From an uncultured Vicinamibacterales bacterium (GTDB taxonomy: Bacteria > Acidobacteriota > Vicinamibacteria > Vicinamibacterales > UBA8438): a stretch of DNA of 64,000 nt. Shown here piece after piece: positions 6,030 to 38,780 of this stretch. The notes below the pieces were generated by a model. The model was not told the DNA's origin, did no database searches, and saw only the letters and a program-made list of their open reading frames with translations. The translations under genes and the position numbers were made by a program. The stretch covers positions 868,001-932,000 of the forward strand of contig OY282382.1 in NCBI GenBank assembly GCA_958295905.1, written 5' to 3'. Within the stretch, counting starts at the first letter, position 1. The number at the start of each line of letters is the position of its first letter.

Positions 6030-8303
6030 TCAGCCGCCCCGCACGAGGCGCACGGGGGGGCCGTCGTCCCCGCGGGGCTCGACGGCGCCGATGATCACCG
6101 CCTGCGCGTATCCCCGGGCGAGGAGGTCGGCGAGACAGGCGTCGGCGCGATCCGCCGGCACTCCGGCGAGGAGACCGCCCGCCGTCTGCGGGTCGAACAG
6201 CAGGCGGTAGCGCGGATCGCCGGCGTGCTCCTCGGGGGCGTCCACCGCGCGCCGCAGCCGTACGTTGTGGGGATGGAGCGAACTCAGGAATCCGGCCCGG
6301 CTCGTCTCCAGCGCCCCGTCCAGCACCGGAATCGCGGGCAGATCGAGCCGGACGGCGACCTCCGACGCGCGCGTCATCTCCACGAGATGCCCCAGCAGCC
6401 CGAACCCCGTCACGTCGGTGCACGCCGTCGCCCCGTGTTGCCGCAGCGACGCCGCCGCGAGCCGGCTGGACTGGCGCATCGCCGCGATGGCGCCGTCGAT
6501 CCAGCGCCCCTTCGCCCGCATCCGCATCTCGGCCGCGAACAGGGTGCCGGTGCCGAGCCCCTTCGTGAGCACGAGCCGGTCGCCGGGACGCAGGCCGCCC
6601 TTGCGCAGAATCGCTCCGGCGTCGACCAGCCCCGTCAGCGACAGCCCCAGGCCGAGCTCGGCCCCTTCCGACGTGTGCCCGCCGACCAGCGCCGCCCCCG
6701 CCTCGTTGAGCACCCCGATCGCCCCGGCGAGGAGCTGCGCCAGGGTGTCCTCGACCTTCCGATCGAGCCCGAACGGCACCGTCGCCACCGCCAGCGCGGT
6801 CTGCGCCTCGGCGCCCATCGCGAAGATGTCGCCCAGGCAGTGGTTGGCGGTAATCTCGCCGAACACGAACGGGTCGTCCACGATGGCCCGGAAGGCGTCG
6901 ACGGTCCGCACGAGCACCTTGCCCGGCGGAACCCGCACCACCGCGGCGTCGTCCGGGGCGTCGAGGCCGATCAGCACGTCGTCCCGCCGCACCGGCGTCA
7001 ACCGGGCCAGCACGCGGTCCAGGGGCGTCGCCCCGACCTTCGACCCGCAGCCGCCGCAGCGCATCGCGGCCGTCGAGATCGCCTGGAGGTCCTCCGGCCC
7101 CGCCAGCCCCGCCGAGACCGCCGGGCCGGTCGGTCGGCGCATCTCCGGCAGGTCGGCGTACTTCGCCATGAACCGGCGGTCGATCCAGTCCTTCCAGCGC
7201 CACGCCAGGGCCCCTTCGAACGACCGGGTGCCGCGTCCCCCGACCGCATAGCGGTCGCCGGTGGACACCAGCGTGAGGAACCGGCGCTGGGGGTGGAACG
7301 GCCGGGGGCGGCGCCCGAGGAGGGCGCGGCGCAGGTTGCGCGCGAGGGGCGGGCCCTGGCGCACCGCGAACACGCCGGCCTTCTCGCGGGGATTACCGAC
7401 GACCGCGGCGGCGTCGCCGGCCGCGAACACGTCGGGGTGCGACGTCGAGCGCAGGGTGTCGTCGACCGCGATGAAGCCCTCGTCGTCGACCGCGAGACCG
7501 GCGTCGCGGGGCCAACGCGCGGCCCCCGCCTGCGTGACCCATAGAATCTCGTCGAGCCGCACCGCCGCGCCGTCGCCGCAGACCACCACGCCCCCGCGCA
7601 CCGCCGTCACCGGCTGTCCGAGGTGCAGGTGCGCGCCGCGCGCCCGCAGCACGCGCTCGAGCCGCTGCCGCACGCCGGCATTGTGGGTCGGCAGAATGGT
7701 CTCCTCCGCCCCGAACAGGTGCATCTCCGGGACCTGCCCGCCCCGGTCCGACCCCGCCAGCATCTGCCGCAGCGCGAACTGCATGGCGAGCAGCAGCTCG
7801 ACGCCCCCGGCGCCGGCCCCCACCACCCCGATCCGCATCGGAGCCTCGGCGGACAGGACGCGGGCGCGCAGCCGCGTCCACCGCTCGACGAAGCGGCCGA
7901 TGGGCTTGACGGGTATCACCGCCTCCGCCGCCCCCGGCACCCCGTGGAACGCGGGGGTGGAGCCGACGTTGATCGACACGATGTCGTAGGGGACCGGCGG
8001 GCGTCCCTCGCAGCGCACCTCGCGCCGGTCGAGGTCGAGCCCCACGGCCGGCTGATGATACAGCCGGGCGCCCGCGAACCGGGCCAGGCGGGCCAGGTCG
8101 ATGTGCACGTCGTCGAACGTGTAGTGCCCGGCCACGAGGCCCGGCAGCATCCCCGAGTACGGGGTGTGGACGTCGCGCGCGATCAGCGTGATGCGCACGC
8201 CGGGCTCGGGACGCATGCCGAACCGCCTGAGCACCGCGACATGGGTATGCCCGCCCCCGATCAGCACGAGGTCCTTGACGACGGGCACGGTGCGGTCGTT
8301 CAT
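6030..8303 (-). CDS. selD: NAD(P)/FAD-dependent oxidoreductase fused to selenide, water dikinase (SelD)
   Basis: This 757-residue fusion makes selenophosphate, the selenium donor for selenocysteine and selenouridine. Residues 1 to about 395 form a pyridine-nucleotide-disulfide/NDH-2-like flavoprotein: LVLIGGGHTHVAVL binds FAD, GVVGAGAGGVELLLAMQ is the second Rossmann motif, and HPDVFAAGDAA closes the flavin site. From about residue 414 comes a full SelD: MRCGGCGSKVG with the catalytic Cys (not Sec) before the lysine, GLDAPDDAAVV, NHCLGDIFAMGA, and the ATP/metal segment LVGGHTSEGAELGLGLSLTG. The fusion architecture is known in several phyla. The start ATG at 8301-8303 lies directly before the dinucleotide-binding motif; the longer frame adds low-complexity sequence. 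It supplies the pathway needed by the three candidate selenoprotein genes at 36.5, 50.0 and 62.4 kb. Confidence 0.95.
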   Translation of the reverse strand: MNDRTVPVVKDLVLIGGGHTHVAVLRRFGMRPEPGVRITLIARDVHTPYSGMLPGLVAGHYTFDDVHIDLARLARFAGARLYHQPAVGLDLDRREVRCEGRPPVPYDIVSINVGSTPAFHGVPGAAEAVIPVKPIGRFVERWTRLRARVLSAEAPMRIGVVGAGAGGVELLLAMQFALRQMLAGSDRGGQVPEMHLFGAEETILPTHNAGVRQRLERVLRARGAHLHLGQPVTAVRGGVVVCGDGAAVRLDEILWVTQAGAARWPRDAGLAVDDEGFIAVDDTLRSTSHPDVFAAGDAAAVVGNPREKAGVFAVRQGPPLARNLRRALLGRRPRPFHPQRRFLTLVSTGDRYAVGGRGTRSFEGALAWRWKDWIDRRFMAKYADLPEMRRPTGPAVSAGLAGPEDLQAISTAAMRCGGCGSKVGATPLDRVLARLTPVRRDDVLIGLDAPDDAAVVRVPPGKVLVRTVDAFRAIVDDPFVFGEITANHCLGDIFAMGAEAQTALAVATVPFGLDRKVEDTLAQLLAGAIGVLNEAGAALVGGHTSEGAELGLGLSLTGLVDAGAILRKGGLRPGDRLVLTKGLGTGTLFAAEMRMRAKGRWIDGAIAAMRQSSRLAAASLRQHGATACTDVTGFGLLGHLVEMTRASEVAVRLDLPAIPVLDGALETSRAGFLSSLHPHNVRLRRAVDAPEEHAGDPRYRLLFDPQTAGGLLAGVPADRADACLADLLARGYAQAVIIGAVEPRGDDGPPVRLVRGG

Positions 8304-8700
8304 CACAGGGTTCTCGACAATCCGGAATCGGCCGGCATCCGGGGGCCCCGGCCGGGGCCCCGCCGCCTTCGACGGCCGGCCTCGGTGTATAACGCGGTTT
8401 CGCCGTCGACTCCCGGCCGGGAATCGCCGCCCGCGGCTCCGCGGGCCGCCCGACCGACCCTCCCGGGGTCGGGGCGACGGCGGGCGTCGGCGCCGTTCTC
8501 CGCCGCGGCCGCCGGGCCCCGGAATCGGCCCCCGCGGCTCCATGGGCCGCCAACCAACCCCGCAGGGCCCTATCGGCGCGCCGCTCGTTTGCGCCGTCGC
8601 CAGCGCCCCCGCGGCTCCATTGCCGCCAACCAACCCTGCCGGGGCCGGCGCCTCCAGCCGGGGCCCGCGCCGTCCAGCGGCCCAGCCTCCCGGCGCGGGA
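8304..8700. other. GC-rich intergenic region, about 400 bp
   Basis: Between the SelD fusion and the aminotransferase, both on the minus strand. It holds several degenerate direct copies of a GGCTCC..TTGCCGCCAACCAACCC motif (near 8535-8570 and 8605-8645), related to the segments at 5647-5705 and 49731-49790. No gene is supported. Confidence 0.5.
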
Positions 8701-22108: not shown

Positions 22109-22235
22109 GGGGCATCTGTAGAGTCGACGACTGGCGCGGTGGCGGTAGGCGGATGGGGGTAGCTGTTTCCGGCCGCTTTCGCCCGGTGCCGGTGCCTCAC
22201 TCCCCGCCGTGACTCCGTTTCCAGTCGCCGCTCAT

Positions 22236-22269
22236 CGAACCGGACATGCGGATTTCCCGCATCCGGCTC
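22236..22269 (-). ncRNA. Group II intron domain V
   Basis: On the minus strand the sequence is GAGCCGGATGCGG, then a GAAA tetraloop, then TCCGCATGTCCGGTTC. This is a canonical domain V: the AGC catalytic triad near the 5' side, a GNRA loop, and the two-helix layout with a bulge. A domain VI-like stem follows. Confidence 0.88.
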
Positions 22270-22279
22270 TCGGACGAGA

Positions 22280-36399: not shown

Positions 36400-36535
36400 C
36401 GGCCCTTGGTGTGCGCGGACCGAAAATTGTAGCATCAGTTCCCGGAGGTGTCGGGCCGGTGCCGGGGGCGAACAGATCGTCCCCGGGGGGCCCGTCCCGG
36501 TTCAGCGCCCGGGAATCGGGCGCACGGAGGTTCGG

Positions 36536-37006
36536 GTGGCAGAAGCAGCAGTAGTGCATACGAGCCGGCTGCGCATCGAGCGCATCGGCGGTCCCTTGCG
36601 GCACGCGTATCTGGAGGGTTTCGACGAGCCGATCCGGTTCGGCGTCCACGGGGGCATCAAGGCGTTCTACGGCGTCGAGCCGCCGGAAGACGTGCCGGCC
36701 ACCCTGGACTACATGGTCGGCGCGGTCGGCGGTTGACTGCTCGGCACCCTTGCACGCGCACTGGAGGTGCGCGACATCCCGGCGCCGACGGAGAAGCTGC
36801 AGGCCAGCGTCGAGGGCGACGTCCAGGCCATCGACAGCGTGCTGCGAATCACGAAGATCCGCGTGCGGTACCGTATCCGGATCCCGTCCGGGACCCGGGA
36901 ACGGGCCCAGCGGGCCGTCGACACGCATGCGACCAAGTGCCCCGCCGCCAACAGCGTGCGAGGGTGCATCGATCTCGACATCTCCGCCGACATCACCGAG
37001 GAGTGA
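36536..37006 (+). CDS. OsmC-family selenoprotein (Sec67, read through UGA)
   Basis: Read with UGA 36734-36736 as selenocysteine, this is a 156-residue OsmC-like protein. GTG start with GGAGG five bases upstream. Residues 1-66 (PIRFGVHGGIKAFYGVEP, then PATLDYMVGAVGG) match the first half of OsmC. The UGA falls exactly where the family has its peroxidatic Cys before LLGTLARALEVRDIP. The frame then continues 89 codons through RVRYRIRIPSGT to the second redox Cys in HATKCPAANSV, stopping at TGA 37004-37006. OsmC/Ohr proteins reduce organic hydroperoxides through the two thiols. A hairpin at 36755-36773 fits a bacterial SECIS. OsmC-like selenoproteins are known. The alternative, a nonsense mutation, is disfavoured by both halves being intact. 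Ordinary gene calling would split it. Confidence 0.88.
36755..36773 (+). promoter_or_regulatory. Bacterial SECIS candidate for the OsmC-like gene
   Basis: Perfect 7-bp stem CGCGCAC/GTGCGCG with 5-base loop TGGAG. The loop starts 26 bases after the last base of the UGA codon, and its second base is G. These match the known bacterial SECIS pattern of an apical loop about 16-37 nt from the UGA with G in the first two loop positions. Confidence 0.7.
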
Positions 37007-37197: not shown

Positions 37198-37202
37198 GCG
37201 TG

Positions 37203-38780
37203 ATGCCTGCGGCGGAATCGATCGTCTGGCTCGCATGGGGAGCCGATGCCTTCGCCCGCGCGGTGGCGGAGCAGAAACCGATCCTGCTGTTCATCGGTAC
37301 CGCGTGGTGCCGGTGGACGGCGGAGATGGATCGGTTCAGCTACCGCGATGCGCGCGTCGTGCGTCTCGTGGCCGACCGGTTCCTGCCGGTGCGGGTCGAC
37401 GCCGAGCGGCGCCCGGACGTCAGCGCGCGGTACACCCTCGACGGTTGGCCGACCACCGCGTTCCTCACCCCGGACGGCGACCTGCTCGGGGGCGGGACGT
37501 ATCTCGACGCCGACGCCCTGACCGCGGTCCTGACCGATGTGGCCGAGGCGTTCACGGGCCGGCGCGCCGTCATCGACGCGCGCGCGACGGCCGTCCGGAC
37601 CGCGGCGGCGCCCGCCGGGAAGCCGGGGCGCACCGCCGGCGTCCTCCGGACCCCCGGGGATGCGGACGACCCCGCCGGGTGGGATGACGCCGCGGGACCG
37701 GGCGACGATGCCGGTCTGGACGCCGGCGCCGGGCGGTGGCTGCACGACCTGCTGCTGGCGCGTTTCGACGCGACCTGGGCCGGCTTCGGCGACGGCGCCA
37801 AGCGGGTCGCGGCCGACGCCCTCGCCGCCGCCCTTCCGCGGTGCCGCGGGACCGGCGGCCCCGACCTGACCCGTATCGTCACCCGCACCCTCGACGCGAT
37901 GGTCGGCGGGGGGTTGTGGGACCCCGTCGACGGCGGGTTCTTCCGCTACTGCGCCGGACGCGACTGGTCCGGGCCGGCCGCCGAGAAGCTGGCCGCGCCG
38001 AACGCGCGCCTCATCGATCTCTATCTGGCCGCGTCGGCCCTCTTCGATCGGATCGACTACGCCGAGCGGGCGCGCGCCATCATCCGTTTCGCGCACGGCG
38101 CGCTGTCCGATTCCGAGGGCGGGTTCTTCGCCAGCCAGGGGGGCGCGCCCGATCCGGACCGGCCCGACCGCTCCCCCGCGCCGGGGCAGGGGGCCATCGA
38201 CCGGACCGTCTACACGGACGCCACCGCCATCATGGCCTCCGCCTACGTGCGCGCCGCGTCGATGCTCGACGACCCCTCGCTGCTCGAGTTCGCGGCCCGG
38301 TCCGTCGACCGGGTGGTGATGGAGAGCTACGAGCGCGGCGCCGGCGTCGGACATACCGCGGCCGGGAATCCGGTCCCGCGCGGACTGCTCGGCGACCAGG
38401 TGATGGCGAGCACGGCGCTGCTCGATCTGTACGAGGCGACGGGCCAGCCCGTCTATCTCGACATGCCGCGCGAGTTGACGGCCTATTGCCACCGGAACCT
38501 GTGGAACGAGACCGGGGGCTTCGCGGATCGGGATCCAACCCTCCGGGGAGCGGATGCGGCGGTCGGGCTCTTGCGCGATCCGATCTACCCGCTGGATCTC
38601 AACTGCCGCGCCGTGATGGTGCTGGCGCGCTTGGCCGGCCTGGCCGGGGAGCCGGCCTATCTGGACCTCGCGCGCCGGACCCTGGCGCTGCAGACACCCG
38701 TGTATCGGGAGCTCGGACTCGCGGGCGCCGCCTACGTGCTGGCCCTGGACGCGGTGTCCGGCGCGTCGTCGCGGCCCTGA
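37203..38780 (+). CDS. YyaL/SSP411-like protein: thioredoxin-like domain plus six-hairpin glycosidase-like domain
   Basis: A 525-residue protein similar to DUF255/YyaL proteins. Residues 20-115 form a thioredoxin-like fold (PILLFIGTAWCRWTAEMDRF, FLPVRVDAERRPDVSARY, GWPTTAFLTPDGDLL). The usual CHWCH motif is reduced to AWCRW with a single Cys, so disulfide exchange is doubtful. The C-terminal part resembles six-hairpin glycosidases (MVGGGLWDPVDGGFFRYC, YTDATAIMASAY). Function in bacteria is unsettled. The family is usually about 600-680 residues; this one is shorter in the linker. A family B repeat ends just before the start. The last 220 bp are duplicated downstream. Confidence 0.85.
   Translation: MPAAESIVWLAWGADAFARAVAEQKPILLFIGTAWCRWTAEMDRFSYRDARVVRLVADRFLPVRVDAERRPDVSARYTLDGWPTTAFLTPDGDLLGGGTYLDADALTAVLTDVAEAFTGRRAVIDARATAVRTAAAPAGKPGRTAGVLRTPGDADDPAGWDDAAGPGDDAGLDAGAGRWLHDLLLARFDATWAGFGDGAKRVAADALAAALPRCRGTGGPDLTRIVTRTLDAMVGGGLWDPVDGGFFRYCAGRDWSGPAAEKLAAPNARLIDLYLAASALFDRIDYAERARAIIRFAHGALSDSEGGFFASQGGAPDPDRPDRSPAPGQGAIDRTVYTDATAIMASAYVRAASMLDDPSLLEFAARSVDRVVMESYERGAGVGHTAAGNPVPRGLLGDQVMASTALLDLYEATGQPVYLDMPRELTAYCHRNLWNETGGFADRDPTLRGADAAVGLLRDPIYPLDLNCRAVMVLARLAGLAGEPAYLDLARRTLALQTPVYRELGLAGAAYVLALDAVSGASSRP

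Follow-up and report, generated by a model that had tools for sequence, protein, structure and literature searches.

Does the frame at positions 36,536 to 37,006 represent a gene broken by a stop codon, or an intact gene whose in-frame UGA is read as selenocysteine (Sec)? The frame lies in the window, which here means the whole 64,000-nt stretch of DNA that was analysed, from an uncultured Vicinamibacterales bacterium. The features considered are the following:

6030..8633, minus strand: selD, an 867-aa ORF whose product supplies selenophosphate (TIGR00476, 289.8 bits at 6147-7073)
36526..36530, plus strand: Shine-Dalgarno-like GGAGG, read directly, 5 nt upstream of the GTG at 36536
36536..37006, plus strand: predicted gene for an OsmC-like selenoprotein of 156 aa (translated with TGA as U), running from a GTG start to a TGA terminator
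36599..36601, plus strand: codon for Arg22, invariant in 98 of 98 aligned homologues, putative counterpart of Ohr Arg19
36707..36709, plus strand: codon for Asp58, an acid nine positions ahead of Sec, invariant (99/99) and putatively equivalent to Ohr Glu51
36734..36736, plus strand: UGA for the predicted selenocysteine 67, at the peroxidatic position
36755..36773, plus strand: predicted SECIS hairpin with a UGGAG loop on a 7-bp stem (covariation, synonymous divergence, Ala codon bias, fold)
36938..36940, plus strand: codon for Cys135 in a CP motif, proposed resolving cysteine
37200..38780, plus strand: neighbouring DUF255/Thioredox_DsbH protein (PF03190, E=4e-26), syntenic in the family, possible partner

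The reading frame and its conserved UGA

When the frame was translated with TGA as U, U67 was its sole internal stop and the terminator was the TGA at 37004-37006. The single frame from the GTG to this terminator, broken only by the UGA at 36734, had been proposed in a sequence-only reading of the window, and was confirmed by the translation and by the GGAGG in front of the start codon. The product matched PF02566 (OsmC) with E=5e-13 and 49.7 bits, against a gathering cut-off of 27.5, which places it in the OsmC superfamily; a comparison with PHROGs gave no match. Downstream of U67, the motif HATKCPAAN contains C135, which the same reading had taken for the second redox cysteine and which was kept in 99 of 99 readable homologues (the proline after it in 100 of 100).

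The window's order contributed 48 genomes with a close homologue and the rest of its phylum 22 more; a further 36 came from the phylum to which a Desulfobacteraceae relative belongs and one from another deltaproteobacterium, giving about 107 genomes from independent assemblies. Every close homologue whose match spans the Sec site had exactly one TGA, and codon-by-codon reading placed TGA at the Sec column in 99 of 99 loci, although the homologues share phylogeny and these counts are not independent events. The dN/dS values were 0.05-0.23 in most pairs on both sides of the UGA, indicating protein-level constraint; downstream of it, pairs with usable dS gave 0.19 (L019), 0.17 (L021) and 0.09 (L022), and two more distant homologues (L033 and L037) gave 0.47-0.56. 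Since the TGA occupies the same column in all these loci and the downstream part is constrained at the protein level, its occurrence by chance was excluded. Relatives with a different sense codon at this site and decayed downstream sequence would have spoken against Sec, but the relatives carried only TGA and their downstream sequence was conserved.

The genes required for Sec insertion were all present in the source genome (6.3 Mb, 3 contigs), as the sequence-only reading had suggested looking for: selA scored 542 bits, selB was over its cut-off, and a tRNA-Sec was found with 63 bits and the anticodon UCA (ARAGORN), so the absence of selB or selC that would have argued against Sec was not seen. 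The selD gene noted earlier in the window was recovered by TIGR00476 on the minus strand. Its 867-aa ORF fuses SelD, at the N-terminus, to a domain that resembles a pyridine-nucleotide-disulfide oxidoreductase (domain named by eye). Within the order, selA was over cut-off in 121 of 162 genomes. The OsmC UGA gene was present in 48 of these genomes, and a comparison of the genome lists by hand showed selA over cut-off in 44 of the 48; of the remaining four, three had a strong tRNA-Sec and one was only 57% complete.

A constrained hairpin downstream of the UGA

The hairpin CGCGCAC-UGGAG-GUGCGCG begins 18 nt downstream of the UGA, and its loop, which contains G's, starts 25 nt after it. The earlier description of a perfect 7-bp hairpin with a TGGAG loop at SECIS distance held for sequence and position; the folding score of the single sequence was modest. 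Single-sequence folding gave z -2.6 for the 25-mer and z -1.9 for 54 nt, and in 83 homologues the folding energy did not differ significantly from that of codon-shuffled (synonymous) controls (mean z -0.44, with 3.6% of sequences at p<=0.05). Folding energy was therefore not used as evidence; since the stability of single sequences is unexceptional in GC-rich DNA, the evidence for the SECIS element is comparative, not energetic.

Across 43 homologues, the stem positions were paired in 95.3% of cells, compared with 7-63% when the partner was slid, and there were 28 double-sided stem changes, compared with 0-6 in the slid versions. Part of this covariation rides on amino-acid changes, so the synonymous part was tested separately. 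Synonymous divergence at codons +7 to +13 was the lowest of 138 windows (0.17 vs 0.44 elsewhere), and the seven-codon windows starting at +7 and +6, both over the hairpin, were the two lowest of all. The Ala at U+8 was encoded by GCA in 34 of 35 close homologues, while in the rest of these genes GCA accounted for 48 of 530 Ala codons (9%). In the whole family, the Ala(+8) codon and its partner codon occurred as GCA/GTG 36 times, GCG/GTG once, GCG/GCG 21 times and GCA/GCG never. A hairpin of another sequence and register, CUGGCC...GGCCGG, whose loop is shifted towards the UGA by about 6 nt relative to the main acidobacterial form, was found in most of the deltaproteobacterial members (L138-L157 and L060) and in L090 and L092 of the window's phylum. 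What is conserved is therefore the structure of the element, not its sequence. Judged by these comparisons, the hairpin at 36755-36773 is a real constrained element. An Rfam scan of the locus gave no match to a SECIS family even at E<=10; to our knowledge, Rfam holds no general bacterial SECIS model. Elsewhere in the window, at 22139-22271 on the minus strand, an Rfam group II intron domain scored 40.8 against a gathering score of 40.

By comparison among the homologues, the UGA is kept as a sense codon and is followed by a constrained stem-loop in genomes with Sec machinery. A true stop, with the gene truncated, a pseudogene or a product of sequencing error, would be the usual meaning of UGA, and program-called ORFs do end there; the same TGA in about 107 independently assembled genomes, the constraint on both of its sides and the invariant catalytic C135 beyond it leave this reading extremely improbable. 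Equally little probability was given to a different amino-acid reading of the UGA, with a variant tRNA inserting Trp or Cys, or to unspecific readthrough. The conserved contexts GGT/GGC-TGA-CTG/ATG could favour readthrough, but the Sec machinery is complete in the genome, the SECIS-like hairpin is constrained and at the correct distance, distant relatives carry Cys (TGC/TGT) and not Trp, and the same gene is also terminated by TGA. The pseudogene, sequencing-error and Trp candidates were all rejected on the ground of conservation. Sec insertion at UGA 36734, in a bacterial selenoprotein of the OsmC/Ohr fold, is thus predicted with high confidence, and the apparently broken gene at 36536-37006 is, from comparison of its relatives, almost certainly intact. 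The strong evidence for Sec insertion claimed by the sequence-only reading was backed by the Sec genes, the TGA-only relatives, the conserved downstream sequence and the hairpin. What that reading missed is that the family is Sec-only, widespread and outside the described OsmC selenoprotein model.

Fold, catalytic residues and proposed reaction

The structure modelled by AlphaFold2 with the family alignment had a pLDDT of 95.7, and its best PDB fold matches by Foldseek, each at probability 1.00, were OsmC/Ohr proteins: 2onf, 4mh4, 6mjn and the Ohr proteins of several bacteria. The best of them was the OsmC-like protein TA0195 of Thermoplasma acidophilum (2onf; TM 0.77/0.85, 12% identity). U67 was aligned with the redox cysteine (GGULLGTL vs SACFIGAM of 4mh4), and alignment against the OsmC families likewise put the UGA column at the redox Cys of Ohr/OsmC proteins, in agreement with the peroxidatic position first assigned to it.

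The residue set of OsmC peroxidases is present as U67, C135-P136, R22 and D58, with the Arg and acid made equivalent by position and not by geometry, and all of these are invariant where readable in the clade. An acid at C-9 also occurs in several Cys OsmC paralogues. His38 and Tyr45 are conserved and specific to the Sec clade, and a third cysteine, C144, is present in 64 clade members only.

By analogy with known bacterial pathways, SelB would bind the hairpin and bring Sec-tRNA-Sec to UGA 36734. Arg22 and Asp58, in the roles described for Arg19 and Glu51 in Xylella Ohr (PMC5962072), would then activate Sec67 for its part as peroxidatic residue. Sec67 would reduce an organic hydroperoxide and be converted to a selenenic acid, which would condense with Cys135 to a selenenylsulfide, and a dithiol reductant such as a lipoylated or thioredoxin-like protein may reset the enzyme. 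A thiol/selenol peroxidase role of the Ohr/OsmC type is likely on the fold and residues, and for the exact cycle through Sec67, Arg22, Asp58 and Cys135 the chances appear evenly balanced. The syntenic DUF255 gene was also considered as a functional partner, but the synteny is restricted to close relatives and proves nothing.

A Sec-only clade among OsmC proteins

OsmC-like selenoproteins were first reported in 2005 from the Sargasso Sea with three sequences (PMC1088965), five sequences with the motif UxxT were described from GOS (PMC2398784), and later reviews still give UxxT (PMC9312934, PMC13188914). These reports and the NCBIfam model NF041052 (OsmC_like_Se, 'OsmC-related (seleno)protein') bear out the earlier statement that such bacterial proteins are known. 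The published protein (COG1765/PF02566) and the clade share the superfamily fold, Sec at the redox-Cys position and a bacterial SECIS after the UGA. They differ in the motif, since U+3 is Gly and U+4 is Thr in 99 of 99 clade loci, giving UxxGT throughout and failing UxxT, and in that no Cys form was found inside the clade. The clade is set apart by this motif description and by its NF041052 score: the product reached 29.2 bits against a curated cut-off of 95, and 28 of 34 clade members gave merely weak matches. Ohr proteins share the fold (Foldseek probability 1.00, TM about 0.7) and the Arg, acid, redox residue and CP-Cys, whereas the clade has Sec for Cys, Asp for Glu, about 15% identity and only 18.6 bits with TIGR03561 against a cut-off of 88.85.

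No Cys version inside the clade was found in a search of the 162 genomes of the window's order, nor at E<=1e-12 in the 396 and 395 genomes of two phyla, where the exceptions were five remote multidomain Cys domains and one fragment that a contig end cuts off short of the site. In the nearest Cys relatives (L158-L162), the OsmC domain forms part of a larger protein and has GGCLLSS at the Sec column. Their sequence DYLLTAVGGCLLSS aligns with DYMVGAVGGULLGT of the Sec protein, and they differ from the clade in having Cys, SS instead of GT, no Pro after the second Cys and a longer open frame. Other OsmC paralogues of the phylum also have Cys (TGC/TGT) at this column. Further OsmC-family matches without internal stops were seen in the source genome at G000:C1:5378974-5380038 on the minus strand (L116/L133), two of them in one 558-aa frame. 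In a tree, 57 thinned Sec sequences formed one side of a branch with support 97/91, and the same branch had 95/92 when the nearest Cys relatives were added. The Cys families sit on long branches, with which a single gain of Sec is compatible, although the rooting and the date of that gain are unsure. In two genomes, a pair of Sec copies from separate branches of the clade occurs together (L097 and L135 in G236; L034 and L068 in G135). Outside the clade, a member of another OsmC subfamily from the same class (L129, G223:C46:22700-23068, minus strand) has TGA at the redox-Cys position (LLAALGTUTSITVALYARR); this single case is possibly a second, independent OsmC selenoprotein.

Two alternatives concern the identity and the activity of the protein. 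The clade may simply be the family published in 2005, given that fold, superfamily and kind of Sec site are alike (PMC1088965) and that the motif in the literature may have been given only approximately; UxxGT in 99 of 99 loci against the published UxxT (PMC2398784, PMC9312934, PMC13188914) and the NF041052 score of 29 bits against 95 make this unlikely. Also unlikely, though marginally less so, is that the selenoprotein is no peroxidase and that its Sec, on the OsmC fold, serves some other redox step or the binding of a ligand, possibly together with the thioredoxin-fold DUF255 neighbour. The identity of only about 10-20% to characterised Ohr/OsmC proteins, the clade-specific His38/Tyr45 and the DUF255 synteny would suit such a role, while the retention of the peroxidase-family positions (Arg, acid, Sec/Cys and CP-Cys), and the limitation of that synteny to near relatives, speak against it. 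An undescribed monophyletic UxxGT subfamily of OsmC selenoproteins without Cys members, its Sec kept across Acidobacteriota and deltaproteobacterial phyla and easily missed by Sec/Cys-pair searches that need a Cys majority, is the reading we consider reasonably probable. To be retained in the 2005 search, a UGA frame needed two or more Cys homologues and a majority of Cys/TGA pairs (PMC1088965), and a clade made up of Sec forms alone could have slipped through such a filter.

OsmC-like selenoproteins themselves are known; what the clade would add is a Sec-only variant that is widespread and in which no Cys member was found. Standard annotation cuts its gene short at the UGA. In most bacterial selenoprotein families, Cys members far outnumber Sec members and the Sec forms are scattered (PMC1088965). 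The OsmC Sec clade, spread over two to three bacterial phyla, reverses this ratio: its roughly 100 genomes all have the Sec form, which suggests that Cys is not good enough for the reaction. Uncultured Acidobacteriota and relatives of sulfate reducers thereby gain a probable Sec-dependent enzyme of peroxide defence.
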